Source: Liolophura sinensis
Lineage: Eukaryota; Mollusca; Polyplacophora; Chitonida; Chitonidae
Direction: 5' to 3'
Length of the DNA stretch: 64,000 nucleotides
NCBI RefSeq assembly: GCF_032854445.1
Contig: NW_027018053.1
Coordinates: forward strand, 1-64,000
Made by a program: the position numbers and the translations under genes. Of this stretch, positions 4,301 to 38,547 are shown one piece after another. Positions within the stretch are counted from its first letter, which is position 1. The number at the start of each line of letters is the position of its first letter. The notes beneath the pieces are model-generated. The model had not been told where the DNA came from. It did not search any database and worked only from the letters and a program-made list of their open reading frames with translations.

Positions 4301-7300
4301 TAGCATGCCAGGGCAGCACAATGATCCAGGAGCCAATCTTACCAGTGCTGTGAGTTCAAGTCCAGCTTATGCTGGCCTCCTCTCTGGCCCTATGTGGGAA
4401 GGTCTGTAGCAACCTGTGGATTGTCATGGGTTCCCCCGGGGCTCTGCCCGGTTTCCTCACACCATGATGCTGGCTGCCGTTGAAATAAATGAAATATTCT
4501 TGAGCACGGTGTAAAACTCCAATCAAATATTAAATAAAATGAATCATAATAGAAATACCTGGATGTTAACCAGTTCAATATTTGGGTGTTCAGTTTCTCA
4601 GAATTACTGGTTTAATTCCACTTCTCAAATAATAGGGCTTTCAGTTTCTCAGAAATAATACTTTAATTCTATTTCTCAAATAATAGGGCTTTCAGTTTCT
4701 GAGAACTACTACTTTAATTCCACTTCTTAAATAATAGGGCGTTCAGTTTCTCTCAGAATTACTGCTTTAATTCCACTTCTCAAATAATAGAGCCTTCAGT
4801 TTCTCAGAATTACTACTTTAATTCCACTTCTCAAATAATAGGGCTTTCAGTTTCTCAGAATGACTACTTTAATTCCACTTCTCAAATAATAGGGCCTTCA
4901 GTTTCTGAGAATTACTGCTTTAATTCCACTTCTTAAATAACAGGGCGTTCAGTTTCTCTCAGAATTACAGCTTTAATTCCACTTCTCAAATAATAGGGCC
5001 TTCAGTTTCTCAGAATTACTACTTTAATTCCACTTCTCAAATAATAGGGCTTTCAGTTTCTCAGAATTACTACTTTAATTCCACTTCTCAAATAATAGGG
5101 CTTTCAGTTTCTCAGAATTACTACTTTAATTCCACTTCTCAAATAATAGGGCCTTCAGTTTCTGAGAATTACTGCTTTAATTCCACTTCTCAAATAATAG
5201 GGCCTTCAGTTTCTCAGAATTACTACTTTAATTCCACTTCTCAAATAATAGGGCCTTCAGTTTCTCAGAATTACTACTTTAATTCCACTTCTCAAATAAT
5301 AGGGCTTTCAGTTTCTGAGAATTACTACTTTAATTCCACTTCTTAAATAATAGGGCGTTCAGTTTCTCTCAGAATTACTGCTTTAATTCCACTTCTCAAA
5401 TAATAGGGCCTTCAGTTTCTGAGAATTACTACTTTAATTCCACTTCTCAAATAATAGGGCTTTCAGTTTCTCAGAATTACTACCTTAATTCCACTTCTCA
5501 AATAATAGGGCCTTCAGTTTCTCAGAATTACTACTTTAATTCCACTTCTTAAATAATAGGGCCTTCAGTTTCTCTCAGAATTACTACTTTAATTCCACTT
5601 CTCAAATAATAGGGCCTTCAGTTTCTCAGAATTACTACTTTAATTCCACTTCTCAAATAATAGGGCTTTCAGTTTCTCAGAATTACTACTTTAATTCCAC
5701 TTCTTAAATAATAGGGCTTTCAGTTTCAAAGAATTACTACTTTAATTCCACTTCTCAAATAATAGGGCCTTCAGTTTCTCAGAATTACTGCTTTAATTCC
5801 ACTTCTCAAATAATAGGGCCTTCAGTTTCTCAGAATTACTAATTTAATTCCACTTCTCAAATAATAGGGCTTTCAGTTTCTCAGAATTACTACTTTAATT
5901 CCACTTCTCAAATAATAGGGCTTTCAGTTTCTCAGAATTACTACTTTAATTCCACTTCTCAAATAATAGGGCCTTCAGTTTCTCAGAATTACTACTTTAA
6001 TTCCACTTCTCAAATAATAGGGCTTTCAGTTTCTCAGAATTACTACCTTAATTCCACTTCTCAAATAATAGGGCCTTCAGTTTCTCAGAATTACTACTTT
6101 AATTCCACTTCTTAAATAATAGGGCGTTCAGTTTCTCTCAGAATTACTGCTTTAATTCCACTTCTCAAATAATAGGGCCTTCAGTTTCTCAGAATTACTA
6201 CTTTAATTCCACTTCTCAAATAATAGGGCTCTCAGTTTCTCAGAATTACTACTTTAATTCCACTTCTCAAATAATAGGGCCTTCAGTTTCTCAGAATTAC
6301 TGCTTTAATTCCACTTCTCAAATAATAGGGCCTTCAGTTTCTGAGAATTACTACTTTAATTCCACTTCTCAAATAATAGGGCTTTCAGTTTCTCAGAATT
6401 ACTACTTTAATTCCACTTCTCAAATAATAGGGCTTTCAGTTTCTCAGAATTACTACTTTAATTCCACTTCTCAAATAATAGGGCTTTCAGTTTCTCAGAA
6501 TTACTGCTTTAATTCCACTTCTCAAATAATAGGGCCTTCAGTTTCTGAGAATTACTACTTTAATTCCACTTCTCAAATAATAGGGCGTTCAGTTTCTCAG
6601 AATTACTACTTTAATTCCACTTCTCAAATAATAGGGCTTTCAGTTTCTCAGAATTACTACTTTAATTCCACTTCTTAAATAATAGGGCGTTCAGTTTCTC
6701 TCAGAATTACTGCTTTAATTCCACTTCTCAAATAATAGGGCCTTCAGTTTCTGAGAATTACTACTTTAATTCCACTTCTCAAATAATAGGGCTTTCAGTT
6801 TCTCAGAATTACTACCTTAATTCCACTTCTCAAATAATAGGGCCTTCAGTTTCTCAGAATTACTACTTTAATTCCACTTCTTAAATAATAGGGCCTTCAG
6901 TTTCTCTCAGAATTACTACTTTAATTCCACTTCTCAAATAATAGGGCCTTCAGTTTCTCAGAATTACTACTTTAATTCCACTTCTCAAATAATAGGGCTT
7001 TCAGTTTCTCAGAATTACTACTTTAATTCCACTTCTTAAATAATAGGGCTTTCAGTTTCAAAGAATTACTACTTTAATTCCACTTCTCAAATAATAGGGC
7101 CTTCAGTTTCTCAGAATTACTGCTTTAATTCCACTTCTCAAATAATAGGGCCTTCAGTTTCTCAGAATTACTAATTTAATTCCACTTCTCAAATAATAGG
7201 GCTTTCAGTTTCTCAGAATTACTACTTTAATTCCACTTCTCAAATAATAGGGCTTTCAGTTTCTCAGAATTACTACTTTAATTCCACTTCTCAAATAATA

Positions 7301-10300
7301 GGGCCTTCAGTTTCTCAGAATTACTACTTTAATTCCACTTCTCAAATAATAGGGCTTTCAGTTTCTCAGAATTACTACCTTAATTCCACTTCTCAAATAA
7401 TAGGGCCTTCAGTTTCTCAGAATTACTACTTTAATTCCACTTCTTAAATAATAGGGCGTTCAGTTTCTCTCAGAATTACTGCTTTAATTCCACTTCTCAA
7501 ATAATAGGGCCTTCAGTTTCTCAGAATTACTACTTTAATTCCACTTCTCAAATAATAGGGCTCTCAGTTTCTCAGAATTACTACTTTAATTCCACTTCTC
7601 AAATAATAGGGCCTTCAGTTTCTCAGAATTACTGCTTTAATTCCACTTCTCAAATAATAGGGCCTTCAGTTTCTGAGAATTACTACTTTAATTCCACTTC
7701 TCAAATAATAGGGCTTTCAGTTTCTCAGAATTACTACTTTAATTCCACTTCTCAAATAATAGGGCTTTCAGTTTCTCAGAATTACTACTTTAATTCCACT
7801 TCTCAAATAATAGGGCTTTCAGTTTCTCAGAATTACTGCTTTAATTCCACTTCTCAAATAATAGGGCCTTCAGTTTCTGAGAATTACTGCTTTAATTCCA
7901 CTTCTCAAATAATAGGGCCTTCAGTTTCTGAGAATTACTACTTTAATTCCACTTCTCAAATAATAGGGCGTTCAGTTTCTCAGAATTACTACTTTAATTC
8001 CACTTCTCAAATAATAGGGCTTTCAGTTTCTCAGAATTACTACTTTAATTCCACTTCTTAAATAATAGGGCGTTCAGTTTCTCTCAGAATTACTGCTTTA
8101 ATTCCACTTCTCAAATAATAGGGCCTTCAGTTTCTCAGAATTACTACTTTAATTCCACTTCTCAAATAATAGGGCTTTCAGTTTCTCAGAATTACTACCT
8201 TAATTCCACTTCTCAAATAATAGGGCCTTCAGTTTCTCAGAATTACTACTTTAATTCCACTTCTTAAATAATAGGGCGTTCAGTTTCTCTCAGAATTACT
8301 GCTTTAATTCCACTTCTCAAATAATAGGGCCTTCAGTTTCTCAGAATTACTACTTTAATTCCACTTCTCAAATAATAGGGCTCTCAGTTTCTCAGAATTA
8401 CTACTTTAATTCCACTTCTCAAATAATAGGGCCTTCAGTTTCTCAGAATTACTGCTTTAATTCCACTTCTCAAATAATAGGGCCTTCAGTTTCTGAGAAT
8501 TACTACTTTAATTCCACTTCTCAAATAATAGGGCTTTCAGTTTCTCAGAATTACTACTTTAATTCCACTTCTCAAATAATAGGGCTTTCAGTTTCTCAGA
8601 ATTACTACTTTAATTCCACTTCTCAAATAATAGGGCTTTCAGTTTCTCAGAATTACTGCTTTAATTCCACTTCTCAAATAATAGGGCCTTCAGTTTCTGA
8701 GAATTACTGCTTTAATTCCACTTCTCAAATAATAGGGCCTTCAGTTTCTGAGAATTACTACTTTAATTCCACTTCTCAAATAATAGGGCGTTCAGTTTCT
8801 CAGAATTACTACTTTAATTCCACTTCTCAAATAATAGGGCTTTCAGTTTCTCAGAATTACTACTTTAATTCCACTTCTTAAATAATAGGGCGTTCAGTTT
8901 CTCTCAGAATTACTGCTTTAATTCCACTTCTCAAATAATAGGGCCTTCAGTTTCTCAGAATTACTACTTTAATTCCACTTCTCAAATAATAGGGCTTTCA
9001 GTTTCTCAGAATTACTACCTTAATTCCACTTCTCAAATAATAGGGCCTTCAGTTTCTCAGAATTACTACTTTAATTCCACTTCTTAAATAATAGGGCGTT
9101 CAGTTTCTCTCAGAATTACTGCTTTAATTCCACTTCTCAAATAATAGGGCCTTCAGTTTCTCAGAATTACTACTTTAATTCCACTTCTCAAATAATAGGG
9201 CTTTCAGTTTCTCAGAATTACTACTTTAATTCCACTTCTCAAATAATAGGGCCTTCAGTTTCTCAGAATTACTGCTTTAATTCCACTTCTCAAATAATAG
9301 GGCCTTCAGTTTCTGAGAATTACTACTTTAATTCCACTTCTCAAATAATTGGGCTTTCAATTTCTCAGAATTACTACTTTAATTCCACTTCTCAAATAAT
9401 AGGGCTTTCAGTTTCTCAGAATTACTACTTTAATTCTACTTCTCAAATAATAGGGCTTTCAGTTTCTCAGAATTACTGCTTTAATTCCACTTCTCAAATA
9501 ATAGGGCCTTCAGTTTCTCAGAATTACTGCTTTAATTCCACTTCTCAAATAATATAGCCTTCAGTTTCTGAGAATTACTACTTTAATTCCACTTCTCAAA
9601 TAATAGGGCCTTCAGTTTCTCAGAATTACTACTTTAATTCCACTTCTCAAATAATAGGGCTTTCAGTTTCTCAGAATTACTACTTTAATTCCACTTCTTA
9701 AATAATAGGGCGTTCAGTTTCTCTCAGAATTACTACTTTAATTCCACTTCTCAAATAATAGGGACTTCAGTTTCTCAGAATTACTACTTTAATTCCACTT
9801 CTCAAATAATAGGGCTTTCAGTTTCTCAGAATTACTACTTTAATTCCACTTCTCAAATAATAGGGCTTTCAGTTTCTCAGAATTACTGCTTTAATTCCAC
9901 TTCTCAAATAATAGGGACTTCAGTTTCTCAGAATTACTACTTTAATTCCACTTCTCAAATAATAGGGCGTTCAGTTTCTCTCAGAATTACTGCTTTAATT
10001 CCACTTCTCAAATAATAGGGCCTTCAGTTTCTCAGAATTACTACTTTAATTCCACTTCTCAAATAATAGGGCTTTCAGTTTCTCAGAATTACTACTTTAA
10101 TTCCACTTCTCAAATAATAGGGCCTTCAGTTTCTCAGAATTACTGCTTTAATTCCACTTCTCAAATAATAGGGCTTTCAGTTTCTCTCAGAATTACTACT
10201 TTAATTCCACTTCTCAAATAATAGGGCCTTCAGTTTCTCAGAATTACTACTTTAATTCCACTTCTCAAATAATAGGGCTTTCAGTTTCTCAGAATTACTA

Positions 10301-13300
10301 CTTTAATTCCACTTCTCAAATAATAGGGCTTTCAGTTTCTGAGAATTACTACTTTAATTCCACTTCTCAAATAATAGGGCCTTCAGTTTCTCAGAATTAC
10401 TACTTTAATTCCACTTCTCAAATAATAGGGCTTTCAGTTTCTCAGAATTACTACCTTAATTCCACTTCTCAAATAATAGGGCCTTCAGTTTCTCAGAATT
10501 ACTACTTTAATTCCACTTCTTAAATAATAGGGCGTTCAGTTTCTCTCAGAATTACTGCTTTAATTCCACTTCTCAAATAATAGGGCCTTCAGTTTCTCAG
10601 AATTACTACTTTAATTCCACTTCTCAAATAATAGGGCTTTCAGTTTCTCAGAATTACTACTTTAATTCCACTTCTCAAATAATAGGGCCTTCAGTTTCTC
10701 AGAATTACTGCTTTAATTCCACTTCTCAAATAATAGGGCCTTCAGTTTCTCAGAATTACTACTTTAATTCCACTTCTCAAATAATAGGGCTTTCAGTTTC
10801 TCAGAATTACTACTTTAATTCCACTTCTTAAATAATAGGGCGTTCAGTTTCTCCCAGAATTACTACTTTAATTCCACTTCTCAAATAATAGGGACTTCAG
10901 TTTCTCAGAATTACTACTTTAATTCCACTTCTCAAATAATAGGGCTTTCAGTTTCTCAGAATTACTACTTTAATTCCACTTCTTAAATAATAGGGCTTTC
11001 AGTTTCAAAGAATTACTACTTTAATTCCACTTCTTAAATAATAGGGCGTTCAGTTTCTCTCAGAATTACTGCTTTAATTCCACTTCTCAAATAATAGGGC
11101 CTTCAGTTTCTCAGAATTACTACTTTAATTCCACTTCTCAAATAATAGGGCTTTCAGTTTCTCAGAATTACTACTTTAATTCCACTTCTCAAATAATAGG
11201 GCCTTCAGTTTCTCAGAATTACTGCTTTAATTCCACTTCTCAAATAATAGGGCCTTCAGTTTCTCAGAATTACTACTTTAATTCCACTTCTCAAATAATA
11301 GGGCTTTCAGTTTCTCAGAATTACTACTTTAATTCTACTTCTCAAATAATAGGGCTTTCAGTTTCTCAGAATTACTGCTTTAATTCCACTTCTCAAATAA
11401 TAGGGCGTTCAGTTTCTCTCAGAATTACTGCTTTAATTCCACTTCTCAAATAATAGGGCCTTCAGTTTCTCAGAATTACTGCTTTAATTCCACTTCTCAA
11501 ATAATAGGGCTTTCAGTTTCTCAGAATTACTACTTTAATTCCACTTCTCAAATAATAGGGCCTTCAGTTTCTCAGAATTACTGCTTTAATTCCACTTCTC
11601 AAATAATAGGGCTTTCAGTTTCTCTCAGAATTACTACTTTAATTCCACTTCTCAAATAATAGGGCCTTCAGTTTCTCAGAATTACTACTTTAATTCCACT
11701 TCTCAAATAATAGGGCTTTCAGTTTCTCAGAATTACTACTTTAATTCCACTTCTCAAATAATAGGGCTTTCAGTTTCTCAGAATTACTACTTTAATTCCA
11801 CTTCTCAAATAATAGGGCCTTCAGTTTCTCAGAATTACTACTTTAATTCCACTTCTCAAATAATAGGGCTTTCAGTTTCTCAGAATTACTACCTTAATTC
11901 CACTTCTCAAATAATAGGGCCTTCAGTTTCTCAGAATTACTACTTTAATTCCACTTCTTAAATAATAGGGCGTTCAGTTTCTCTTAGAATTACTGCTTTA
12001 ATTCCACTTCTCAAATAATAGGGCCTTCAGTTTCTCAGAATTACTACTTTAATTCCACTTCTCAAATAATAGGGCTTTCAGTTTCTCAGAATTACTACTT
12101 TAATTCCACTTCTCAAATAATAGGGCCTTCAGTTTCTCAGAATTACTGCTTTAATTCCACTTCTTAAATAATAGGGCCTTCAGTTTCTCAGAATTACTAC
12201 TTTAATTCCACTTCTCAAATAATAGGGCTTTCAGTTTCTCAGAATTACTACTTTAATTCCACTTCTCAAATAATAGGGCCTTCAGTTTCTCAGAATTACT
12301 ACTTTAATTCCACTTCTCAAATAATAGGGCTTTCAGTTTCTCAGAATTACTACTTTAATTCCACTTCTTAAATAATAGGGCGTTCAGTTTCTCTCAGAAT
12401 TACTACTTTAATTCCACTTCTCAAATAATAGGGACTTCAGTTTCTCAGAATTACTACTTTAATTCCACTTCTCAAATAATAGGGCTTTCAGTTTCTCAGA
12501 ATTACTACTTTAATTCCACTTCTTAAATAATAGGGCTTTCAGTTTCAAAGAATTACTACTTTAATTCCACTTCTCAAATAATAGGGCCTTCAGTTTCTCA
12601 GAATTACTACTTTAATTCCACTTCTCAAATAATAGGGCTTTCAGTTTCTCAGAATTACTACTTTAATTCCACTTCTCAAATAATAGGGCCTTCAGTTTCT
12701 CAGAATTACTACTTTAATTCCACTTCTTAAATAATAGGGCATTCAGTTTCTCTCAATTACTACTTTAATTCCACTTCTCAAATAATAGGGCCTTCAGTTT
12801 CTCAGAATTACTACTTTAATTCCACTTCTTAAATAATAGGGCGTTCAGTTTCTCTCAGAATTACTGCTTTAATTCCACTTCTCAAATAATAGGGCCTTCA
12901 GTTTCTCAGAATTACTACTTTAATTCCACTTCTCAAATAATAGGGCTTTCAGTTTCAAAGAATTACTACTTTAATTCCACTTCTCAAATAATAGGGCCTT
13001 CAGTTTCTCAGAATTACTACTTTAATTCCACTTCTCAAATAATAGGGCTTTCAGTTTCTCAGAATTACTACTTTAATTCCACTTCTCAAATAATAGGGCG
13101 TTCAGTTTCTCTCAGAATTACTGCTTTAATTCCACTTCTCAAATAATAGGGCCTTCAGTTTCTCAGAATTACTACTTTAATTCCACTTCTCAAATAATAG
13201 GGCTTTCAGTTTCTCAGAATTACTACTTTAATTCCACTTCTCAAATAATAGGGCCTTCAGTTTCTCAGAATTACTACTTTAATTCCACTTCTCAAATAAT

Positions 13301-16300
13301 AGGGCTTTCAGTTTCTCAGAATTACTGCTTTAATTCCACTTCTCAAATAATAGGGCTTTCAGTTTCTCAGAATTACTACTTTAATTCCACTTCTCAAATA
13401 ATAGGGCCTTCAGTTTCTCAGAATTACTACTTTAATTCCACTTCTCAAATAATAGGGCCTTCAGTTTCTCAGAATTACTACTTTAATTCCACTTCTCAAA
13501 TAATAGGGCCTTCAGTTTCTCAGAATTACTACTTTAATTCCACTTCTCAAATAATAGGGCTTTCAGTTTCTCAGAATTACTACTTTAATTCCACTTCTTA
13601 AATAATAGGGCGTTCAGTTTCTCTCAGAATTACTACTTTAATTCCACTTCTTAAATAATAGGGCCTTCAGTTTCTCTCAGAATTACTACTTTAATTCCAC
13701 TTCTCAAATAATAGGGCCTTCAGTTTCTCAGAATTACTACTTTAATTCCACTTCTCAAATAATAGGGCTTTCAATTTCTCAGAATTACTACTTTAATTCC
13801 ACTTCTTAAATAATAGGGCTTTCAGTTTCTCAGAATTACTACTTTAATTCCACTTCTCAAATAATAGGGACTTCAGTTTCTCAGAATTACTGCTTTAATT
13901 CCACTTCTCAAATAAAAGAGCATTCAGTTTCTCAGAATTACTGCTTTAATTCCACTTCTCAAATAATAGGGCGTTCAGTTTCTCTCAGAATGACTGCTTT
14001 AATTCCACTTCTCAAATAATAGGGAAGCCTGTTAAATTTCGAGCCGGTGTGTGATTATCACACCCCTTCGCATAAACGAGGAATGTGATAACATTTTGTG
14101 CTCATTTGATGTGACATCAGCTCCTTGAAACTGGGCTGGATGCGTTTCGTTTGAGTGTTTGAATGTGTTTCGTCACTGGTTTGCATGCAATAACTGCTCG
14201 ATAATATTGTCCAGTTTTCATAAAATTTGTGTACAGGTTCAGTTGATAGGCCCTCAGGTAATGACTCAAAAGCCCAGCAGGATCAACACATAAGTTTCTT
14301 TGATTCTGATTGGTCACTGGTCTACATGCAGTAACTTTATATTGTCCGATCTTGATGAAATTGGGGTGCAGGTTTGTTTGGTAGACCCTGAGGTGTAGTT
14401 TGAAAACCAGCTTCTTCCATACATATTTGCATATTTGACATGGAATATGAAATTTCAGAGAGGGGGCCTCTGGGGCAGATGTGGTTAGCGCGACAGGGCG
14501 GCGCATTGACCCAGGAGCCTCTCACCAGTGGGGTCTCTGTAAGTCCAGACTTCCTTTCCGGCTCTGTATGGGAAGGTTTGTCAGCAGTGTGTGGATGATT
14601 GTGGGTTTACCATGGGCAATGCCCTGTTTCCTCACACTATAATGCTGGTCGCCATACATTATTGAGTGTGTTGTAAAGCATCAATCAAATAACCAGTCAG
14701 TGAAATGAAATCTTAGAAATTATCTTATTAAAGGAAGGACCATTCTCATAGCCATTGTAGATCAGGTTTTGTTGTAATTTGCTCATTTCTTGAAAATTAA
14801 TTAGATGAGAGTCACAGTGACATACATGCTGTATTATTGTCAAAATCCAGTTTGGGGACATTGGTGCTGTCAGTTTGTCAATATGTCTCATCTTGTTTTT
14901 TTTGTTTTTTTTAGAATTTTTCCTGTGACATAGAAAGCATTAAGAATTCAGTACTTAATTCATCAGAATTTCTCTTTAGTAGTTAATTTCTGCGAAAAAA
15001 TAACTCAATTCATTTCTGGACAATGTTCTCTATTGCCTTTCAGTTGAGACATGCGTTACTTTGTAATTTGTGTATATTTTAGGGCATCAATCTCCTTTTA
15101 AGCTAAGAGATAGGAGTACTTTCTGAGTCAAGTCAAATTAAAGACGTCTGTGACATTGGATTTTAGCAACAGTGTGGCTACAAATCATTTTGTTATAACG
15201 TGAAATAAAGAACAGATATAAAAAAAATTCAAGTTGAACATGTCAAAACACAGGTGTGAAAATCAAACTCTACAAGATCAGTAGCACAGTTACATGTTCT
15301 TGTAAAATTCCTGCTGAAGTGCAAAAAATCATTGTCTTTGAGAATGTTGATCTGTTTGCATGAAACACAGGTGTCTAACTTAGAAGATAGGATGGGACTG
15401 AAGAAGATGACAAGTGTACAGTGTAGGTCTATACCTGTATTACTGAAGGGACGGGATGCTTTGATCAAGTCACAAACTGGATCAGGTATTTATTTGTTTA
15501 ATTTTGTTTTGTTTGTTTGTTTTGTTTCTTCCACTTATCATTAAGAGATCCCAGACAGTTTTGCAGGAGAGGAAAGTACCAAGAGTAAACCTTAAACATT
15601 TGGCAAGTTACAGGTGGACTTTCTTGTTTTAAACATTGGTACTGGAAGCAAGCAGTGTCCATTAAACTGCAAAGTAGTCATAAAAAAAAATTCATCCGGC
15701 TGATTAAATTGAAACACAAGTCTGATGACGTAACGATCAAAAGACAGGCACCTTAACCATGGGGGGTCTTGACTTACTCTCAGCTCTAGTAATCAAAATA
15801 ACCATAATCGAAGTTTGTTTCTTACCTTCAGTTCTTCAATGGCCGCATGACCAAGAGTGTTAGCATGCCAGTGTCGCACAATGACCCAGGAGCCTCTCAC
15901 CAATGCAGTTGCTGTAAGTTCAGCACATGCTGGTTTCTTCTGCCATACGTGGGAAGGTCTGGCAGCAACCTGCGGATGGTTGTGGGTTTCCCCCTGGCTC
16001 TGCACGGTTACCTCTCACCATATGCTGGCCTCCATCGTATAAGTGAAATATTCTTGAGTATGGTATAAAACGCCAATCAAATAAATAAATAAATAAATAA
16101 ACGATGGCAGGATACTTTAATGACTTTTTGTGTCATAATTTTGGTAAAATTTGAACAGAAAATTACTACATAGTGATCAATAATCTGTTTGTCTTATTCA
16201 CTTACAGGTAAAACTCTAGCCTATGCCATTCCAGTGGTACAGAGTTTACAGGCTCTCACACCTGAAGTCCAGCGTAATCATGGACCCTACGCTGTGGTCC

Positions 16301-19300: not shown

Positions 19301-22300
19301 CTTCTCATAACCCCGACAAACTGGTATGTTGTCTGCCACTCTCACACAGGGTATGTCTTCTCTTTACTCACCTGATGATGTTCCCCATGAGCATGTAAAG
19401 TTGGATCATTTTTTTATAGAATGTTCGGATATTGGCATATGCTATCAATTAAATGAAGTCTTATGGTGGGAAATGTTGTAGACACAAACACCAAAGTGAT
19501 TTTATTTTCATTTTATTTCATTTTCAGGTTGAGAAAAGGTCTAAACATTTTAATAGCTACACCAGGTCGCCTGCTGGATCATATAGAACACACCAACTGT
19601 CTCAACTTGTCACGTGTCCGCTGGCTTATACTGGATGAGGCTGATAGGTAAGGTGTTGTCGTGAACAGTCACAATACATATGGAGCACACCAACTGTCTC
19701 AACTTGTCACGTGTCCGCTGGCTTATACTGGATGAGGCTGATAAGTAAGGTGTTGTGATGAACAGTCACAATACATATGAAGCACACCAACTGTCTCAAC
19801 TTGTCACATGTCCGCTGGCTTGTACTGGATGAGGCTGATAGGTAAGGTGTTGTCGTGAACAGTCACAATACATATAGAACACACCAACTGTCTCAACTTG
19901 TCACGTGTCCGCTGGCTTATACTGGATGAGGCTGATAAGTAAGGTGTTGTGATGAACAGTCACAATACATATGGAGCACACCAACTGTCTCAACTTGTCA
20001 CATGTCCGCTGGCTTATACTGGATGAGGCTGATAGGTAAGGTGTTGTCGTGAACAGTCACAATACATATGGAGCACACCAACTGTCTCAACTTGTCACGT
20101 GTCCGCTGGCTTATACTGGATGAGGCTGATAAGTAAGGTGTTGTGATGAACAGTCACAATACATATGGAGCACACCAACTGTCTCAACTTGTCACATGTC
20201 CGCTGGCTTATACTGGATGAGGCTGATAGGTAAGGTGTTGTCGTGAACAGTCACAATACATATGGAGCACACCAACTGTCTCAACTTGTCACGTGTCCGC
20301 TGGCTTATACTGGATGAGGCTGATAAGTAAGGTGTTGTGATGAACAGTCACAATACATATGGAGCACACCAACTGTCTCAACTTGTCACATGTCCGCTGG
20401 CTTGTACTGGATGAGGCTGATAGGTAAGGTGTTGTCGTGAACAGTCACAATACATATAGAACACACCAACTGTCTCAACTTGTCACGTGTCCGCTGGCTT
20501 ATACTGGATGAGGCTTGTAGGTAAAGTTTTGTCATGAACAGTCACAATACATATGGAGCACACCAACTGTCTCAATTTGTCACATGTCCGCTGGCTTATA
20601 CTGGATGAGGCTGATAGGTAAAGTTTTGTCATGAACAGTCACAGTACATATAGAACGCACCAACTGTCTCAACTTGTCACATGTCCACTGGCTTATACTG
20701 CATGAGGCTGATAGGTAAGGTATTGTCATGAACAGTCACAATACATATAGAACACACCAACTATGTGAAGTTGTCACGTGTCCACTGACTTGTAGTGCAT
20801 GAGGCTGATATGTAAGGTGTTGTCATGAACAGTCGCAATACATATAGAACACACCTACTGTCTCAACTTGTCACGTGTCCACTGACTTGTAGTGCATGAG
20901 GCTGATATGTAAGGTGTTGTCATACCATGACATCATCTGCCTCGGTTTGTCATGTGTCTCACATTTTGTTGGCTGTTGTTCAGGTTTCTGGATGTGTGTT
21001 TTGAGAAGGACATTGCACAAGTTATTAAACTTGGTTTTGTTTTCTGTTGTTCAGGTTTCTGCACATGTGTTTTGAGAAGGACATTGCAAAAGCTTTTGTT
21101 TTCTGTTGTCCAGGTTGCTGGACATGGGTTATGAGAAGGCTGTTGCACGGGTTATCACAGCCATCAACCAGCACTCACAACAACCCCGACAAACTGTTAT
21201 GTTGTCTGCCACTCTCACACAGGGTATGTCTTCTCATTTCTCACCCGATGATGTTCCCCATATGATCATAAATCATGAAAAAAATTGGCCTGTGCCAGAT
21301 ATTTTCCTAATGTTACAAGAAAGCTGTTCTATACAAATCATTAATCACCCGATGATGTTCCCCATATGGTCATAAATCATGAAAAAAATTGGCCTGTGCC
21401 AGATATTTTCCTAATGTTACAAGAAAGCTGTTCTATACAAATCATTGATCACCCGATGATGTTCCCCATATGGTCATAAATCATGAAAAAAATTGGTATG
21501 TGCCAGATATTTTCCTAATGTTACAAGAAAGCTGTTCTATACAAATCATTAATCACCCGATGATGTTCCCCATGTGATCATAAATCATGAAAAAAATTGG
21601 CCTGTGCCAGATATTTTCCTAATGTTACAAGAAAGCTGTTCTATACAAAATACAAGAATAGCTTATATCACATCACGAGTGTCCAATAACATCCATGAAA
21701 TGGAGACCAATGTTCAAACAATAAAATGTTAACAGTTTCATCTGTAAACGTTCTGCATGTATTAAGCTTAGGTTTTACTAACATGTAGAGTGTAAATTAG
21801 CATAAATTAAAAAAAATAAGATGTTCCAGGTCATGCTGGCTTCCGCTCCGGCTGTACCTGGGAAGATCTTCCAGCAGTCGGAGGATGGTTGCGAGTTTCC
21901 CCCCAGCCTGTAACCAATTTCCACCCACCATAATGCTGGTCGCTGTCCCAGAAGTGAAATATTCTTGAGTGTGGCATGAAATACCAATGAAATAAATAAA
22001 TAAATAAATAAAATAAAGTGTTAAGGTAAACATTAGGGTTGATATCTCGAAGTGTACTCCGTGTATTGATATAGTTCAGTCTGTACATTTAAAGCAGGTT
22101 GATTGTTGTCCATAATGTGCTCTGTTTGAGTATTGATACCCGTAAATTACAACATTTACAACTTCAGTGTCAGTATCTAATGTATTGAGCTGAACTTTGG
22201 TAACCTTGCGTCTCCAACAGGCAGGCCCTTTGTTAGCTGTGTTTTATGAAATCTTAAGTGTTTTCTGTCTCATTCACTGTACTAATGTACATCAGGTAAA

Positions 22301-25300
22301 CACTGCAATGGTGAAGAATAAAACATCCACTGGCACATGGCTGCATACACCATGACTACTTTGTCCACTGTCGTAATATTCGACAGAAAACAAATAAATA
22401 CATGAGTACATGCAAATTAATGCATATTTGTTAACTGTTATGTGCTGACAATGATGGATATCTTGATGTGCCCAGCTCATGTTTGCTTCCTCTCTGGCCG
22501 TAAGTGTGAAGGTCTCCCAACAGCCTAAGGTGGGTTTTCCCCGGGATCTGCTCGGTTTCCTCCCACCATATGGCTGGTCGCTTTTGTATAAGTGAAATAT
22601 TCTTGTATATGGCGTAAAACACCAATCAAATAGATAAAAAAAATCTTTATGTGCCATGTGAAGGCTCAGTGTTTGACAAGCACTAAATAAATTCCTTGGT
22701 TTGCTAAAAGTACTTGTTCTACGATAGTTACTTTTTTTTCTTTTTTTTTTTTGGTAAACATGATTTAATAACTGTCAATTATTATAAAAATTATTTAACT
22801 TTCTGTTTTTTTGCCAGGTGTAGAGAGATTGGCTGGTATCACCCTACATTCTCCAGAGATGATATCTGTCACAGAAAATGAGACGGAGACAGCTCAACGA
22901 TCAGATAGCAAACCTGAGAGGACAGCAAAGAACAGAGAAAATTTGACAGCTGACGTGAAAGAAAGATTTAGTATACCTGACAAACTGAAGCAGCTGTATG
23001 TCATAGTACCATGCAAACTGAGACTTGTGACTTTGGCTGCTTTCATCATGTGGAAGTGTAAGGTGAGAAAAAGTGTAGTGCCATGTAAACTGAGACTTGT
23101 GACTCTGGCTGCCTTCATCATGTGGAAGTGTAAGGTGAGAAAAAGTGTAGTGTCATGTAAACTGAGACTTTCGACTCCGGCTTCCTTCATCATGTGGAAG
23201 TGTGAGGTGAGAAAAAGGTATAGTACCATGCAAACTGAGACTTGTGACTCTGGCTGCTTTCATCATGTGGAAGTGTAAGGTGAGAAAAAGGTATAGTACC
23301 ATGCAAACTGAGACTTGTGACTCTGGCTGCCTTCATCATGTGGAAGTGTAAGGTGAGAAAAAGTGTAGTGTCATGTAAACTGAGACTTGTGACTCTGGCT
23401 GCCTTCATCATGTGGAAGTGTAAGGTGAGAAAAAGTGTAGTGCCATGCAAACTGAGACTTGTGACTCTGGCTGCCTTCATCATGTGGAAGTGTAAGGTGA
23501 GAAAAAGTGTAGTGCCATGCAAACTGAGACTTGTGACTCTGGCTGCCTTCATCATGTGGAAGTGTAAGGTGAGAAAAAGTGTAGTGTCATGTAAACTGAG
23601 ACTTGTGACTCCGGCTTCCTTCATCATGTGGAAGTGTGAGAAAAAGTGGTGTACTGTGTGGACTGAGACTTTTAACCCTGGCTGCCTTCATCATGTGGAA
23701 GGCAGGTGTGAGGTGAGAAAAAGGTATAGTACCGTGTAAACTGAGACTTGTGACTGTGGCTGCCTTTATTATGTGGAAGTGTAAGGTGAGAAAAAGGTGT
23801 AGTACCATGTAATCGGAGCTCTTTGACTGTGGCTGCCTTCATCATGTGGAAGTGTAAGGTGAGAAAAAGGTTTAGTACCATGTAAACGGAGCCCTTTGAC
23901 TGTGGCTGCCTTCATCATGTGGAAGTGTAAGGTGAGAAAAAGGTTTAGTACCATGTAAACGAAGCACTTTGACTGTGGCTGCCTTCATCATGTGGAAGTG
24001 TAAGGTGAGAAAAAGTGTCACATACATGTATATGTACGTGTACTTGGTAAATTGCCGGTTTGTGATTGGTTGCCCTCATCATATGGAAGTGTGTAAAGGT
24101 GGGGAAAACTCACTCAAATTTCTTTAAAAGTGTAAATTGAGAAAATAAATGTGAGAAAATGAATGTAAGAAAATGAGATTCCGGTTTCTTTTAGAAGGGT
24201 TAGAAAGAGAATAAAGTTTCATTGAAAGTATGTTAAGGAAAGAAAATCTCACAAGAAGAAAATAATGAGAAAGAGTTGAGAAAAGAATTCCTCCTAAAGG
24301 TGAGAAACTTCTGTGGAAGTGTATAATTGAGAAAATCGTTTCCTGGAAGTTAAGGTAAAAGAAGGTTCTACATTGTGTCATGTGAGAATGACTTCGCATG
24401 AAGTTGTGAAAGATGATTAATGTCTCTTCTGGTCATGTCCAGTTGGAAAATGTTACTCTTGAAATGTAGTTGGAGGAAAAAACTTGTCTCAGTGTGTAAA
24501 ATAATAGAGGTGGTGCATATGTAAAGCACAAATCAACAAGTAAATAAATTAAATAAATAAATCAGTCAGTGGAACTGAGATCTGACTGTTGATGAGGATT
24601 TGGAGGCGATGAGCTGTTGACAAGTATTGTCAAGACTTCTGTGACCATTTGGAAAATTCACTTGATCTTGAGTAAAAACAACAATCAAATAAATAAATAC
24701 ACTAGTAAGGAAGTTTTTTGTTTTCAGTTTTCATCTCCAAAGAATAAGATGATCGCATTCCTGGCCACCCAGGACTCTGTAGAGTTCCATCACAGAATAT
24801 TTGACCACTGTATTAACGGGAGAACTATGCCAGCTGTAGACAGTGGGATGGATAGTGATGACAGTGATGTACCTGTTCACGGCTTGAAAAGTAGTTCCTC
24901 AGAGAAAGTAGTGGCGTTCTTTAAACTTCATGGCGATATGCAACAGAAGGTGAGGAAATTCAACCTTCAACTGTACATTTAAAACCATGCAAACTTAATA
25001 TCCTTGTTCACTGTGTTGTAAAACAGTGATGTGTTGGGTTGTGGTAAAATGGTCTTGCTTTGTGGTATGATGTTGATATTTTTTAACACATGAGATTTCT
25101 TTACAGTTTTATGTGGCAGCTGTTTTTGTAAATATAGGTACCCCCATTAACACCACACAATGTTAAAAAAAAAAAAGACGCCAAAAAAAGATGCATTTAA
25201 AAAAACGATGAAAATATTCTGTTCAGCATTGTATGTGACTGTTGTAGTTAATTATGAAGTGTTTTACACCGTACTGAGGAATATTTCACTTATACGACGA

Positions 25301-28300
25301 CGGCCAGCATTATGGTGGGAGGAAACCAGGCACAAACCGGGGGAAACCCACAACCATCTGCAGGCTGCGGGCAGACCTTCCCACGTATGGAGGGAGAGGA
25401 AGCCAGAATGAGGAATGTTGTAAAAATTTGTATTATTTAAGAAGGCTTTGTACATGGAACTTTAATAAGTAATGAATTATTTTCACTAACAAAAACTTCA
25501 CCATCTTATACATTCTTATACATTTGGTTGGAATTCGGTTGCTGTGAGTTCAAGTCCAGCTGATGCTGGCTTCCTCTCCGGCCGTAAGTGGAAAGGTCTG
25601 TCATCAATCTGCGGATGGCCGTAGGTTTCCCCCAGGCTCTGCCCGATTTCCTCCCACCATAATGCTGGCCGCCGTCATATAAGTGAAATATCCTTGGGTA
25701 TGGAATACAACACCAGTCAAATAAATAAATAAATTTATTTGGTTGATGTTATTGCGCCTGCTCAAGAATCTTTCACATATACGACGGCAGCCAGGATTAT
25801 AGTGAGAAACCGACGACCATCCACAGGCTGGTAGTAAACTTTCCCACATACAGCTGGAGAGGAAGCCAGCATGAGCTGGACTTGAACTCACATTAAAATT
25901 GCATTTGTGAGAGGCTCCTGTGTCATTGCTAACCACCTCAGCCACAGAGGTCCCTGTGGAGTCTGTTAGTATGTTCACTGAGGATCACTTGTCTTCCAAT
26001 ATGCTTTGCATATCTGTAAATCACATATGAGAAAGTTTGTCAGTAACTTGACAAAAGTCAGTGGTTTTTCCCCAGGCATACCAGACTTTTTGGTTTTCTC
26101 CACCATGAAAATAACGAACATCCTTGAGTATGGCTTTAAACATGTGTATAAATCAGCAGTCAAATAAATAAATGAAAGTCTTTTACAATAACTGGAGAAG
26201 ACTGCTGACATCATTTTTTTTTTTTTTTTTGTAAAAATTGAAATCATTACTTCTGACTTATATGTAGCAGAGTTGAGGGGAATTGTGAAGACTAGGGTGC
26301 TTGTTATGTGTTGATTTCCATGTGCCTTTGGATGTCGTTCGTTTTCTCACAGCCATGCGCTTTTACTGATTTCTCATTGGTTAAAAATGAAATGTTCAAA
26401 TTTACAGTGTTCAAAGAAAAACAGCGTCATTCTAGTCTCTCTCATGTGACACTGTCATCCATGAGTTTTCTGCACCCAACTGTTCATGATTCATACATTT
26501 CGGGAAGTCATGTCTTGGTTTGATTTGAAAACCTCTGCATTGGAACTTCCATCAGACAGCATGTTTGATCCACAGTCATATGTTTATACCACTGGACTAC
26601 TCGACTTGTGATAGAATCAATTTTTTTAGACATGATGAAGACAGATGGACAGGGTTAGAGTTGAATGCGCATGTGGGTGTGTCACAAGCTTTTGTCATGT
26701 GGAATTCATCTGAAAAGAATCTCCTCTGTCTTTTGCACCCATGTCTGGCCAGCCTCATTCATGGAAGCATGAATGAATTGACGTAAGTAGTGACGTATGA
26801 AGTGACATGTAAACACAACGTCCTAGTCTTTACTCTATCCGTATGTTTAATAGTAAACATGTTTTGTGTGTGTTTCAGGAAAGAACGAGGGTGTATCAGG
26901 AATTTAGTCAGGCTAGTTCTGGGGTCCTGCTATGCACGGTGAGTAGGGCTGTGCACGGTGAGTAGGGCTGTGCACGGTGAGTAGGGCTGTGCATGGTGAG
27001 TAGGGCTGTGCATGGTGAGTAGGGCTGTGCATGGTGAGTAGGGCTATGCATGGTGAGTAGTGCTATGCATGGTGAGTAGTGCTATGCATGGTGAGTACGG
27101 CTGTGCATGGTGAGTAGTGTTATGCACAGTGAGTAGTATAATGAATGTACATGTAGGGTACTGCGTGTCAGTTCTTCACATGACACTAGTGGCACAAGGA
27201 CCCAGGAACTTCTCACCAACGCAGTGGCTGTGAGTTCAAGTCCAGCTCATACTGGCTTTCTCTCCAGTCGTATATGAGGAAGGTCTGTCAGCAACCCTCA
27301 AAGGGTCATGGCGTTTCCCTGGAGCTCTGCAAGGTTTCCTTGCACTTTAATGCTGGCTGGCGTCATATAAATTAAGGTGTGAGTGAATAAGACCATTTTA
27401 CCACTCTTTTCAGTGCACAAAACATTGCAATAATATTAATGGGTTATCCGATCTTTTTCTATTACCGCTGCCATGCACATCTTTCTGTAAACCAGTGCAT
27501 TGTCAGAAACCTTCAAAGTGAATTTTTTTTGTGAATTGCAAATTGCAGGTTCAATCCCAGCCTGGGGCAGGGGGTTATATAGAATTCCTGGCTCTCACTG
27601 ACCACTTAATGACAATTAGCAATAGATGGAGTGCGTAAACCTGTTTTCAGTAACTTGCCCAAGGTTTGCTGTTTATTTCCAGAGCACTCTGTTCCCCACC
27701 ACCTGTAAACGTGGATGCCATGATTTTAAATAAAGAATTCTTGTGTAAGGTATTTAATATCGATCACTCGCTCAAGCATTGTGGGTTGATTATCTGATTG
27801 ACAGGACGTAGCTGCTCGAGGGCTGGACCTGCCCAGGGTTGGCTGGATCGTTCAGTTCTCTTCCCCTGGGGGTTGTGCGGAGTACATCCACCGTGTAGGG
27901 AGGACAGCCCGAGCAGGATCACAGGGTCACTCCCTGCTCTTCCTCATGCCAGACGAAGTGAACTACATCAAGACGCTTCATGCTGAAAATATCAGGTAAC
28001 AAATGTGACACAGGATCACCTAAATGCCGGAGCATGCCATCTTGATTTTCCAAATAAGTACTTTATTTCTCCCAAAAAGTGCATGTTTAAATGCAAATAT
28101 AACTTTTAAAATATTACTTTTAGAGCTGAAAGTTACAGTTTGTTTCCAATCCTACCTTCCAGACGAACCTTAAGATCAGTGAAACTGAGAATCAAACAAA
28201 ATGAGTGCATGTACCTTTCATAGTCCTGGGCAAAAGTAAAGTCCAACTCGGACTTTAATGCAGATTTAATGCTCCAAAATGTGATCTAGACCTAAAGTTG

Positions 28301-31300
28301 GTACATCCATTGATCAGAAATTCTGAATTCAGCTAGTCGAATCAAATATGCTATGTTGCCCTTGCAGCGCAATGACCCAGAAGCCTCTCACCAATGCGGT
28401 CGCTGTGAGTTCGAATCCAGCTTCTGCTGCTTCCTCTCCGGCCGTACTTGGGAAGGTCCTTCAGCAACCTGCGGATGGTTGTGGACTCGGTTTTCTCCCA
28501 CCATAATGCTGACCACTGATGTACATGTATATATGTGATATAAATTCCTGAGAACGGAATAAAACATCAATCAGATAAGTAAATAAATAAATCATAACCT
28601 ACAAACTGCATAGGGGCCTCCGTGGCTCAGTTGGTTAGCATGCTAGCACAGCGTAATGACCCAGAAGCCTCTCACCAATGCAGTTGCTGTGAGTTTAAGT
28701 CCGGCTTATGCTGGCTTCCTCTCCAGCCATACATGGCAAGGTCTTCCAGCAACCTGCAGATGGTCGTGGGTTTGCGCCGGGCTTTGCCCAGTTTCCTCCC
28801 ACCATAATGCTGGCCGCCATCGTATAAGTCAAGTGTCCTTGAGTATGGCGTAAAACACCAAATAAATACAAACTGCATAGGCGTATTTCAATGGGAGTAT
28901 TCCTACCTCTCGGCATTTCATGCCTCATAAACTAATCTCCAGTTAAATCATAACAGCTGGTGTGACAAGGGAGGTAATTTATGGACCTTTTGAACTGATG
29001 TGAAATATTTGGCTATAGAAGTGTTTGATGTGAAAACTTTGCTTCAGTTTAAGAGAGCTACCTATGGAAGACATACTGAAGAGCCTAATTCTACATGTTA
29101 GAGATGTACCACAAAACTTTGAGCAAAGAGTAAGTGGATTTCTGAATAAATATCAGAGCTGCTTTTTTTTTTGTTTCATTGTCTTTCGTCAGTAGTCAAC
29201 CTGAGGCTAGCTACTATCACATTTAAATGAATTATTCTTGAGCACAGCTTAAAACACTAAGCCAAAAAAAAAAAAAAATAACTTCTCTCTGTGGTATATA
29301 TTCTCAAACAGTCACATGTTTTCTCTTTCTGACATGTTTTCTCACGGTGAAATATTTTCTCATACATGGTGTCTTGTGCTGACATGTTTTGTAAGCTTGA
29401 CATATTTTCTCATTCTGACAGGCATGATTTCTCAAACTGAGATGTTGTCACATGCATGGCATGTTCTCTCGTATTGAGATGTTTTCTCCTATTGAGATGT
29501 TCTCTCAAACCAAGATTTTGTCACTTGCATGGCATGTTCTTTCAAGCTGACATGTTCTCTCTTTCTGAGATGTCTTCTCTTTGTGAGATCTTTTCTCATT
29601 TTCTTTTCTTACTGTACAGAGGGAGACACCCAGAACTTACCAGGAAGCTGCCACCTTCTTCCAGCTGAAGATGGAAGAAGATGTGCATCACAACAAAGAG
29701 CTTTTTCAGCTCTCACAGAAAGGTACGTGTACAGAATGTGAGGGGCCTCATGTTTGTCACATTAAATAGATTATCACTTTGGATATATGAATAGTTGCAA
29801 TCAAACCCAAATTGTGATAAAAACTTTGGATGAAGAAAAACTTATAAATTAGCTTGGCTCACGTACTCAATTTGGACACTGAGTTCATTCAGTCACCTGG
29901 AACATTCCTTGCCATCACCATTCCAGCATTGTTCCAAACTGTTGACTGCTTTCTCTTCTGCATGAATCCACCTAATGTTTGTACTTTATACACTTTTTTT
30001 GTGGTGTGTGATGAACCTTGTTTTGGGAATTGGCCTTATGATTAATATGGACCATAGCCAGGTACGCGTTTTGTCTGCTTTAACAACTAAATTAATTTCA
30101 TTTTTTTCCCCTTTTGCAATTGCTAAGATATAGTTGAAATATTACCAATGTGGTGTCAACAGACTTCATTCATTCAACTATTTTTCACTGCAGAAGTTTT
30201 TCTAACTCTTCATTTCTTTGGGTCTTGGTGGCACTAGGCGTTCGTAGGGAATTTTGCTATTCACGTAATCTTACATGAAGTTTAATGGCGATCACCTGCT
30301 CTTCCACCTGCCTTCCACCGTCATCACTGATGGCGTTCATATTGTGCTTGCTATGACAATGAAAATCTGTATGTCACATTTGAGAACATGGGTGGCCAAT
30401 TTGGTTTACTCCGGTTTCTATTCTATTTTTAACCCATGAAAATTACGTTTTTGTTGAACACCAATCTATCAATCAACCGCTGTTTGCAGCCTACCAGTCC
30501 TTCGTCAAGGCGTACGCCACGTACCCAGCACATCTCAAGTCCATCTTCCATGTGAAAAATCTACACCTAGGCCACCTGGCTAAAAGCTTCGCACTCCGAG
30601 ACACACCCAAAGACATCGGCATTGGATTCTCTAAAATAATGGCATCCCCGAAGCACAAGAGAAAGAGGGATATAAACAAAATGTGAGTTTTCACAGTTTC
30701 AAAAACTTTTCTTCATCAGAGTAAAGTGCATTCATGTAATTGGAATCTAATGTTAGGCGCTGATGATATCGGAATCTTTCCATGTTTTTTTCATTGAATC
30801 TTGTATTTATTGTCAGAATAACACTTAGTTAATTAATGTATCTGCCAATACTTTCGTACATGATGCACTTTCAAGATTTTTATTGTGTGGTTCATGAAGC
30901 ATACCTTAGACAAAAAATGTTTAAAGTCAGTTGATTCTGTTCAAGAAAGATTTAAAAAAATAAATGTGTATACTGAGGTAGATATATTAAATAAGATTTA
31001 CACGTAACTATATGAAAGAAAGCTTTTATAACACCCCAGCCATTCAAGTAAATGGTATGTTCCCACAGCTTACTGCATACATCTAGCATTGAGCTAGTAT
31101 TATATATCATAAAATAACAAAGAAATATGAACTTGAATTAAAATGAAATAAAAACACTAACGAATTAATTTAAAAGAGTCATAAACATGAAAATTTTGTT
31201 CCAGAACATTCAGAGAAGGAGAGGCTGCCAAAAAGCAGAGAACAAGCCTGATGTCCGAGTTCTCTAGTGGAAGTAAAGGCAGGAGAAAGGCTTTCTCAGG

Positions 31301-36148: not shown

Positions 36149-36981
36149 TCACAGCTTTCCTGCCATACCAATGGTAGAGCGGTAGTTCCAGGATCAATCC
36201 TTGATCGAGTCACACCTAAGACTTTAAAAGAGGAAGTTGTAACTTCCTCGCTTGGCGTTCATCATGAAGGGAATAGTGACCCGTATCAGTATAATGGCTC
36301 GGGCGGGGCGGCTTACTTGCCTTCGGTAAGTCGTCTCAGTGAAGCAGCACTAAATAAAAGAGCGGTGGAAATCCGTCCTGCAACAAGGAGGCACATTACA
36401 CGTACATGCACCCTAATGATTCCTTCGTCGTCATATGACTGAAAAATTGTTGAGTACGACGTTAAACCTCAAGCACTTACTCACTCACCAATGGTAGAGA
36501 GAAAGTCAAAAATAGTATCACTTTCTACAGAATTAAAAAGTTCTGAAAGAGAGCTCACGTGATAAAAGGAATCGCGTACAGGAGCAAAGTCGCCACAGTC
36601 AAGCAATATGTGTTTGACTGTGAACCGTTGATCACAAGCGAAGCAATGAGGAGCATTTTCTCCTTTCAACAAATACCTATGCGTAGCACGTGTGTGACAG
36701 ATACGACACCTCCTCAAAATGCAAGAGCGGAGACGATGCCGTGAAAGGGAAGGTGCTGAACCAACAAGCTGACGGATATTATGAAGTTTGTTGGTTGTCT
36801 GGTCGTCCCATTGAGCCTGAAACACTATAGGAGCAAATAAGTGAACGCAAGTCCGAATATGGAACGTCAGTTTGGGTAGTAACGGAATGCAGAGCCGCCT
36901 TCGTGGCTTCATCTGCAGCAGTATTCCCAGGGATACCCATATGCCCGGGCACCCAACAAAAGACAATGATAAAATCTTCAT
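36149..36981 (-). pseudogene. LINE C-terminal Cys/His region, split by a SINE
   Basis: CRICHTRATHRYLLKGE, HCFACDQRFTVKHILLDC (CxxC-H-CxxC-H-C spacing) and FDFLSTIG. The SINE at 36180-36486 entered a few codons before the natural stop (TGA complement at 36149-36151). Confidence 0.8.
36180..36486 (+). mobile_element. SINE family B nested in the LINE
   Basis: GGATCAATCCTTGATCGAGT, GAGGAAGTTGTAACTTCCTC, CGACGTTAAACCTCAAGCAC and TCACTCAC. Flanked by ACCAATGGTAGAG at 36167-36179 and 36487-36499. The 5' head is shortened relative to the copy at 35204. Confidence 0.88.
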
Positions 36982-37258
36982 TAAGTCGTTTAAACATCTC
37001 CCTGATAGACAGAAAGTCTGGATTTACAGGCGAACTAGCCCGAATTGCCTGGAGGCAGGCAAGGGAGTCAGAGGAGATGAGAAATCTGATACCTCCTAGC
37101 TCTGGAATGCACCGAAGTGCGCACAAAATTGCCTTGGCTTCCGCAGTAAATACAGAACAGGAATTTGGAAACCGAGTTGAAATGGTTCTGGGCCCAAGGA
37201 CAGCGGCAGAAGCCACGCCATCATCATTCTTGGAACCGTCAGTGAATGTACGGTGATA
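36779..37258 (-). pseudogene. LINE RNase H domain
   Basis: FTDGSKNDDG (first catalytic Asp), TAEAKAILCALRCI (Glu), ISSDSLACLQAI (Asp) and CWVPGHMGIPGNTAADEAT (His and Asp) are all visible. It is in a different frame from the RT, and a second shift follows before the C-terminal segment. Confidence 0.88.
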
Positions 37259-37283
37259 AAATGGATACTTTGAGCACTTATTA

Positions 37284-38528
37284 CTAAACTCCTGTTGGTA
37301 TACTAAAGGGTTGGTGGAAGATTTTTTTCAGGGAGGAGAGCGAAGTATCAACCTGAGGCTCAGGACATAACCACGGTGGATCTTCCTGGATGCGTATGGG
37401 GGTGATAGTATCCAGCCCAAGTCCAGCTGCTTGCACATGTTCCTGGATGCGGACACTCAGTGGAGGAACAATGGATGGCTTCTGAGCATATAAGTCTTCA
37501 AATTCCGGATGGAAGCCACAATCAAAGGCTGGGTTGGATGGGTTGGCTCTAAGCTTGGTGATATACTGTAAGGATAGTTTAGTTCTTCGAGGCTCCAGGG
37601 GAGGCTCGTTTGCCTCAACATACAGACTCTCCTCAGGAGAGGTACGGAAAGCACCTAAGCACAACCGCAGGGCCTGGTGATGTACAGTATTGAGTTTCTT
37701 CAACTGGTAGCGTGACGCACCTCCATAAACACTGCAGGCATAGTCTAGCTTAGAGCGAATCAGTGCTCGATAGAGCTGAAGTAGGGTTTCATGATCCCCT
37801 CCCCATCGAGCACTAGGGACAACCTTCAAAATATCAAGCGCCTTTAGGCATCTGGCTCTAAGATAATTAATGTGAGATTTAAATGTAAGGTGCTTATCGA
37901 AGATCACCCCGAGGAATTTTGCCTCCGGCACAACCTTGATGGGGGACCCATCTAAAAATACCTTGGGGTCTTCATGGGGGAAGTACTTCCGACAAAAGTG
38001 TACACAGTTAGTCTTCGACTTGGAGAACTTAAATCCGTTCTCCAGTGCCCAGGCATGGATTTTGTTAAGGCAAATCTGCAGCTGTCTCTCAATAGTGCGC
38101 ATACCTTTGCCTCGACAAGAGATACCAAGATCGTCCACAAAAAGGGACGCATTCATACTAGGAGATAAATCTCTGGCAAGGCTATTAAGCTTAATGCTAA
38201 AGAGAGTAACTGGTAAAATGCTGCCTTGAGGAACCCCCTGATCTTGTTCAAAGTAGTCAGATAGGGTAGCCCCTACCCGCACTTGGAAGTGACGATAGTC
38301 TAAGAATTTACGAATGAAGTCAGGAAGCCGACCTCTAAGTCCCAATCCATGCATATCTTTCATAATGCCATATTTCCAAGTGGTGTCATATGCCTTTTCC
38401 AGATCAAAAAAGACAGATACGACATGGTCACGATTAACGATAGCGTTCTTAATAAAGGATTCTAGACGAACAAGGTGATCAACAGTACTGCGATTCTTTC
38501 GAAATCCACATTGAATATCACTTATCAT
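37284..38528 (-). pseudogene. LINE reverse transcriptase domain
   Basis: 414 codons open. Seen: GFRKNRSTVDHLVRLE, motif A FFDLEKAYDTTW, motif B QGVPQGSILPVTLFSIKLN, motif C FVDD (two catalytic Asp present), then the thumb with KFLGVIFD. It begins only 12 bp inside the insertion, so the upstream endonuclease is lost. The frame stops before RNase H. Confidence 0.9.
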
Positions 38529-38547
38529 TAGCCTCCAAAATACCTAA

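Follow-up and report, generated by a model that had tools for sequence, protein, structure and literature searches.

Tandem repeats across exon/intron boundaries in a DDX31-like helicase gene and other genes of the chiton Liolophura sinensis

Boundary-spanning repeats in the DDX31-like gene

The first 64,000 nucleotides of contig NW_027018053.1 of the chiton Liolophura sinensis (RefSeq assembly GCF_032854445.1; this stretch is referred to below as the window) carry a gene for a DEAD-box RNA helicase, which we take to be DDX31, with several exon/intron boundaries lying inside tandem repeats. The gene extends from 1211 to 31337 on the forward (+) strand and has been modeled with 17 exons encoding a stop-free reading frame of 730 amino acids (aa); all 16 introns are of the GT-AG type, and the Pfam domains DEAD, Helicase_C and CTE_SPB4 are found above the cut-off. 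The label DDX31, also used in an earlier note on this DNA, is presumptive; among the best 60 of 180 matching PDB sequences the top ones are Has1/DDX18 helicases and DDX31 does not occur. The exon numbering of that note (8, 9, 10 and 12) agrees with our gene model.

Copies of splice sites were searched for with blastn, using 35 bp on either side of each of the 32 sites as query (E ≤ 0.001) and positions 1-33000 of the window as target, and array coordinates, unit lengths and copy numbers were obtained with Tandem Repeats Finder (TRF). Additional boundary-spanning copies exist for five of the 32 sites, i.e. the donors of exons 8, 10 and 12 and both the acceptor and the donor of exon 9, and none was detected for the other 27 in this search. 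The earlier note had described these same five events, and all of them are borne out by TRF, the gene model and the blastn search.

Three of the donors lie in long arrays on the + strand, each of which starts within the exon and extends into the intron. Array 1 (19580-20923) consists of 13.9 copies of a 97-bp unit across the donor of exon 8 (19528..19647, +), the final 68 nt of the exon belonging to unit 1. Array 2 (23004-24018), with 14.0 copies of 72 bp, crosses the donor of exon 10 (22818-23062, +), and array 3 (26929-27136), with 10.9 copies of 19 bp or about 11 units, that of exon 12 (26879-26938, +). At exon 9 (21114..21223, +) the acceptor lies in three direct repeats of 60 bp (20957..21138, +) with decoy exon starts at 20984 and 21055 ahead of the real one at 21114; the two upstream copies are 85% identical over 54 bp and 80% over 55 bp. 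Exon 9 also has a displaced copy of its 3′ edge, donor included, in intron 7 (19309..19388, +; 95% over 80 bp in comparison with 21182-21261). A further array of four 104-bp units (21234..21649, +) begins 10 bp past the exon 9 donor without spanning it. Both upstream copies of the exon 9 start (20984-21113) encode FEKDI where the working exon encodes YEKAV, and by eye the decoys look nearer to the usual helicase sequence, as though the exon had been altered after the duplication.

The claim of the earlier note that each unit keeps its donor holds for the GT dinucleotide, which is present in all 14 units of array 1 and in all 11 of array 3, but not for the full site, weakened in 8 of the 14 units of array 1 (A at -1 in four, T at -1 in two, A at +5 in two). 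In array 2 the exact sequence AAG/GTGAGA occurs in 11 of about 14 units and GAG/GTGAGA in others, one unit lacking AAGG. The donor 9-mer of array 1 has a conservation of 0.940 against a unit mean of 0.956, and 76% of all 9-mers are conserved equally or better. When the exonic part of array 1 is compared with the exon, 10 synonymous and 30 non-synonymous changed cells are counted; as these 40 cells are partly shared by descent, they reduce to 17 distinct changes, 3 synonymous and 14 non-synonymous, the expected synonymous share being 0.217. Pairwise divergence is 0.070 in the exonic and 0.068 in the intronic part. The copies of array 1, the array to which this statement applies, thus look as if they drift neutrally. 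Selection preserving the decoy donors, an idea raised in the earlier note, finds no support in array 1, which has eight weakened sites and a 9-mer no better conserved than the rest, and the exonic substitutions look neutral.

Splicing to the copies would be costly. Any of decoy donors 2-14 of array 1 (13 of 13) would cause termination at aa 285. Of the 11 alternatives tested in array 2, donors 2 and 3 would lengthen the protein in frame by 24 or 48 aa, and the nine later ones would lead to a stop at aa 474. All ten decoy donors of array 3 would truncate the protein, as would either of the exon 9 decoy acceptors, with stops at aa 334 and 342. Since nearly every decoy would have this effect, the exon-side splice site should normally be the one used.

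Random placement of nine collapsed array founders within the gene gives an expectation of 0.89 boundary-spanning cases, and 4 are observed (P = 0.0066); when the 60-bp triplicate is left out, 0.77 are expected and 3 observed (P = 0.031). Both tests are post hoc, DDX31 having been chosen for its richness in such arrays.

Other repeats within the gene include an array of about 184 copies of a 51-bp unit that occupies 9.4 kb of intron 3 (4589-14024; 359 bp is called as an alternative period) and a degenerate 18-bp array (29314-29599) that stops some 20 bp before the exon 15 acceptor. A tRNA-like short interspersed element gives 34 fuzzy core matches on both strands of the window, several within DDX31 introns, some copies yielding two matches; tRNA and Rfam scans gave no matches.

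According to the earlier note, the other arrays of the window straddle no boundary. This stands for the splice sites of DDX31, the blastn search having found no copies of the other 27, but an array of four 27-bp units (54231-54339) spans a coding edge: it starts within the final codons of TLR-like frames, their stop codon lying in its unit 1. These frames, several in number, match LRR and TIR domains and may represent a gene or a pseudogene. They are flanked by an inverted duplication of an ABCA-like fragment (41703-44179 and 59451-61927, 91% over 2.5 kb), with a further block (44537-46237 and 57568-59233) at 87% identity. Between DDX31 and the ABCA-like fragment lie frames of a retrotransposon of the long interspersed element type (36481-38543, - strand), with a reverse transcriptase match (PF00078) and an RNase H-like frame recognized by eye.

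Splice sites sampled from the same genome

An independent sample of exons was obtained by Pfam profile searches of the whole genome (609,464,459 bases in 632 contigs) with Myosin_head, Cpn60_TCP1 and Kinesin, the flanking DNA being analyzed for part of the matches. Splice edges were placed by simple weight tables, and only matches free of internal stops were counted as exons. The matches used were 47 of 81 for Myosin_head, 15 of 50 for Cpn60_TCP1, 62 of 132 for Kinesin and 0 of 49 for DEAD. The resulting 124 exons have 248 edges, 14 of which were removed because they were domain ends and 5 because they lacked a site, so that 229 were tested.

In the two batches together nine of the 229 edges are spanned by a TRF array: 7 of 114 donors, or about 1 in 16, and 2 of 115 acceptors. 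Batch one (104 exons) contributes 8 of 192 edges, while 3.97 are expected if the same units are placed at random in the same stretches (P(≥8) = 0.032). Six of its 96 donors are spanned against 2.01 expected (P(≥6) = 0.012), whereas its acceptors (2 of 96 against 1.96) are at expectation; batch two adds one donor among 37 edges. The suggestion that boundary-spanning arrays exceed the rate of random placement is thus upheld, post hoc in DDX31 and independently in batch one.

The spanned donors include two in one myosin gene (locus L024; 18 copies of a 31-bp and 8 of a 66-bp unit) and those of chaperonin exons with four 109-bp units (L032) and seven 66-bp units (L035). Two arrays of the sample, at L028 and L044, are on the acceptor side; the former, in another myosin gene, occupies 2146-3506 of its locus with about 43 copies of a 32-bp unit. 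The notion of DDX31 as a special locus is not supported and is rejected, since the myosin, chaperonin and kinesin genes sampled here carry similar arrays. A further 28 matches in the stretches analyzed (11 Myosin_head, the rest TCP1 and Kinesin) had been left out for internal stops, and arrays span 3 of their 51 placed edges, two acceptors (L031 and L045) and a donor with a poor site score (L027).

The donor frequency of 7/114 (6.1%) compares with founder-weighted values of 1.0-2.5% at points 50-1000 bp downstream, and the acceptor frequency of 2/115 (1.7%) with 0.3-2.2%. A control for strand was made on 76 array families, with expectations from non-array sequence and exon annotation unused for the arrays. 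Ten families hold a total of 11 sense donor sites of at least 8 bits where 3.68 were expected (P = 0.0015), and antisense ones number 3 against 2.00 (P = 0.32); its arrays overlap those of the edge test, so that the two tests are not independent. As antisense sites remain near expectation, what has been amplified points to real donors and not to the motif alone, and a repeat-prone donor motif is excluded as the sole cause. A donor bias in the sample is probable.

Tandem donor motifs are abundant in the genome, with 935 triples per 19,904 singles (4.7%); when GT is changed to GA the figures are 91 and 11,062 (0.8%), and 66 and 6,758 (1.0%) for this control read backwards. Merged by eye, the roughly 100 donor matches listed form 14 distinct arrays, all on contig C1, where the list extends to 13.1 Mb for one strand and to 18.8 Mb for the opposite one, the completeness of the list within that stretch being uncertain. 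Distinct arrays of the GA control number 24 genome-wide, 1 of them in the same C1 stretch, and those of the donor motif read backwards 17 among the matches listed, 3 of them in that stretch. When single donors at listed places were followed, 7 of 53 loci had at least three copies in 700-bp steps and about 3 of 71 loci of the GA control, by eye; these are raw counts. A further probable donor array, at C1:1413360-1414494, comprises fourteen exact CAGGTRAGT sites that share one strand and are spaced 82 bp apart in 12 of 13 steps.

The searches brought out two further features. One large contig carries eight consecutive mollusc haemocyanin beta-sandwich units (PF14830), which mark the genome as molluscan; the single unit compared with PDB sequences has haemocyanins as its best matches. 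Myosin-head matches occur in very long open frames at C3:10775981-10779943 (1339 aa) and C8:10565028-10571210 (1870 aa), which may be intronless copies.

Origin and persistence of the arrays

The arrays are probably exon-edge minisatellites of the kind called mirages in amphioxus, i.e. products of ordinary minisatellite turnover in which the exon copy is held by selection. In a mollusc genome rich in minisatellites, local tandem duplication would sometimes capture the end of an exon together with the start of the intron. The exon-side copy would remain the working splice site, and the extra copies would turn into intron and drift neutrally while the array expands and contracts like any minisatellite. 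Purifying selection on the protein would preserve the exon-side unit, so that one end would always retain an undecayed template. Because the unit held in this way would re-seed the array from that end, exon-edge arrays may decay more slowly than purely intronic ones, and slower decay may be the cause of their excess. Acceptor arrays are perhaps rarer because a duplicated upstream acceptor would be more likely to be used and hence purged by selection.

The relationships between units were compared in 12 junction arrays, comprising the three from DDX31, eight from the counted set of nine spanning arrays (that of L043 being omitted) and the array of L020, located at a myosin exon missed by the hidden Markov model; L027, L031 and L045 were left out. 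Of the two end units, the one on the exon side is the nearer to the inner units in 10 of the 12 (sign test, P = 0.039; Wilcoxon test, P = 0.014), and in control arrays the 5′ unit is the nearer one in 23 of 51. Likeness to the exon unit declines with distance from it (median rho -0.49, with -0.29 for control arrays; P = 0.044), almost perfectly so in the L028 acceptor array of about 43 units (rho -0.97). A less diverged exon-side unit and a likeness that declines with distance fit the model of an anchored seed.

Several points weigh against this explanation or against the bias on which part of it depends. The enrichment is modest and the sample small: without the array of L043 (2.4 copies, 78%) the P values become 0.085 overall and 0.044 for donors, and the arrays of L043 and L052 overlap the placed exon by more than a unit, which makes these edges uncertain. 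Inclusion of the matches with internal stops brings the tally to 12 of 280 edges (8 donors, 4 acceptors) and weakens the bias toward donors. Two of the 12 anchoring differences round to 0.000, one equals 0.002, L052 is reversed, and without the DDX31 arrays the proportion drops to 7 of 9. The donor motif read backwards gives 239 triples per 7,580 singles (3.2%), which makes the genome-wide count ambiguous, and enrichment across the genome is not settled by it. Use of the exon-side donor is assumed from genomic sequence, and the lower tolerance of acceptors is an argument.

A broader proposition, which we put forward tentatively, is that in this mollusc minisatellites preferentially arise or persist at functional 5′ splice sites, about three times as often as in intron sequence, and that exon ends act as a renewable seed filling introns with donor arrays throughout the genome. 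Mutation, persistence and selection are all candidate sources of the donor bias. A raised rate of duplication would produce the same donor excess as slower decay, and the data do not separate them.

Mutation linked to the junction is the alternative that survives best, though we regard it as rather unlikely: pausing, R-loops, nicking or template switching at transcribed donors would raise the local rate of tandem duplication. It would account for the excess of donors among the spanned edges and of sense-strand sites in the array units. The share of exon in the founder unit varies, however (10/19, 15/31, 16/31, 16/66, 44/66, 59/72, 68/97 and 93/109 bp, with L043 and L052 omitted for the reach of their arrays into the exon), and no fixed breakpoint is indicated; a higher birth rate is also not distinguished here from a lower rate of loss.

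Chance combined with ascertainment is judged slightly less likely still. In a minisatellite-rich genome some founders would land on splice sites and a rich case would be noticed; the expected rate is already about 2% per edge, DDX31 was selected for richness and the genome-wide motif test is weak when set against its backwards control. This explanation is at odds with the four spanning cases of DDX31 against 0.89 expected, with the donors of batch one, and with the sense-strand excess of donors in array units, antisense sites being near expectation (in arrays that overlap those of the edge test).

Selection for the donor arrays themselves appears improbable. Extra 5′ splice sites could recruit U1, strengthen exon definition or guard against early polyadenylation, and the enrichment of donors with acceptors at expectation in the counted set, as well as the complete retention of GT in arrays 1 and 3, would be in keeping with this. 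The donor 9-mer of array 2 ranks in the top 7%, a weak indication as it was computed on 9 pieces where the true units number about 14. The weakened sites and unremarkable 9-mer of array 1, described above, speak to the contrary. Assembly artefact, with collapsed or invented repeat copies, can practically be dismissed: although the window sits on a small contig (100,241 bp), the units of array 1 differ among themselves with a 194-bp alternation, comparable arrays occur on contigs of 25-96 Mb, and a search of the genome with exon 10 matched this contig only.

Comparison with known systems

The closest parallels to these exon-edge minisatellites are the mirages of amphioxus, reported since 2002 (PMC117041, as cited by later work). 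The passages of two later reports that deal with them describe tandem repeats across exon/intron boundaries in Adh3, the globin genes BflGb6 and BflGb9, troponin C and PGBD5, with units of 10-160 bp, many of which carry AG/GT signals, on the donor or the acceptor side (PMC3087553, PMC3902484). Haplotypes of BflGb6 carry 3 and 6 units and reverse transcription-PCR indicates normal splicing, which the relevant part of the same report also states for the lancelet Adh3 and globin genes despite their arrays (PMC3087553).

The chiton arrays resemble mirages in that the units of DDX31 span the exon/intron boundary and many retain AG/GT signals, either edge of an exon may be affected (the donors of exons 8, 10 and 12 and the acceptor of exon 9 in DDX31, the acceptors at L028 and L044), and several genes of one genome are concerned (DDX31, myosin, chaperonin and kinesin). 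The mirage trait of a homogenized cluster from which the end units are left out fits here only at the far end, the exon-side unit being nearer to the inner ones in 10 of 12 arrays. Unlike the amphioxus examples, ours come from a mollusc, contain up to 14 units (DDX31) or about 43 (one myosin gene) and are known from the genome sequence of a single assembly; they also provide an estimate, from a sample, of how often splice sites are affected, and a probable bias toward donors.

Among the papers listed in searches of the open-access literature no boundary-spanning case from a mollusc was found, although a report may exist; an abalone intron minisatellite is not described as boundary-spanning in the consulted portion of its report (PMC6905558). 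What is new here is thus probably a second phylum for mirages, a rate of 9 in 229 sampled edges (7 in 114 donors) and the likely bias toward donors. If this is correct, mirages are not an oddity of lancelets and are present in at least two distant phyla. They would also constitute a natural experiment on the choice of the spliceosome among near-identical donors, because almost all of the DDX31 decoys tested would cause premature termination. Such arrays are also a pitfall in genome annotation, as predictors may call decoy exons within them.

Two other systems invite comparison. Internal tandem repeats at exon-intron boundaries have been described, in the part of the report concerned with them, for human segmental duplications, their copies being able to act as splice sites; there the genes are recent paralogs, splicing is altered and new introns are made, whereas DDX31 is a conserved gene with its full reading frame kept (PMC2812944). 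Intron gain through tandem duplication of AG/GT segments has been proposed (Rogers 1989; Gao and Lynch 2009; both as cited in a passage of PMC3087553). Tandem copies of segments with splice signals are common to that model and to DDX31, where the copies sit inside introns, and if our interpretation holds, the idea that such copies feed intron gain becomes testable.

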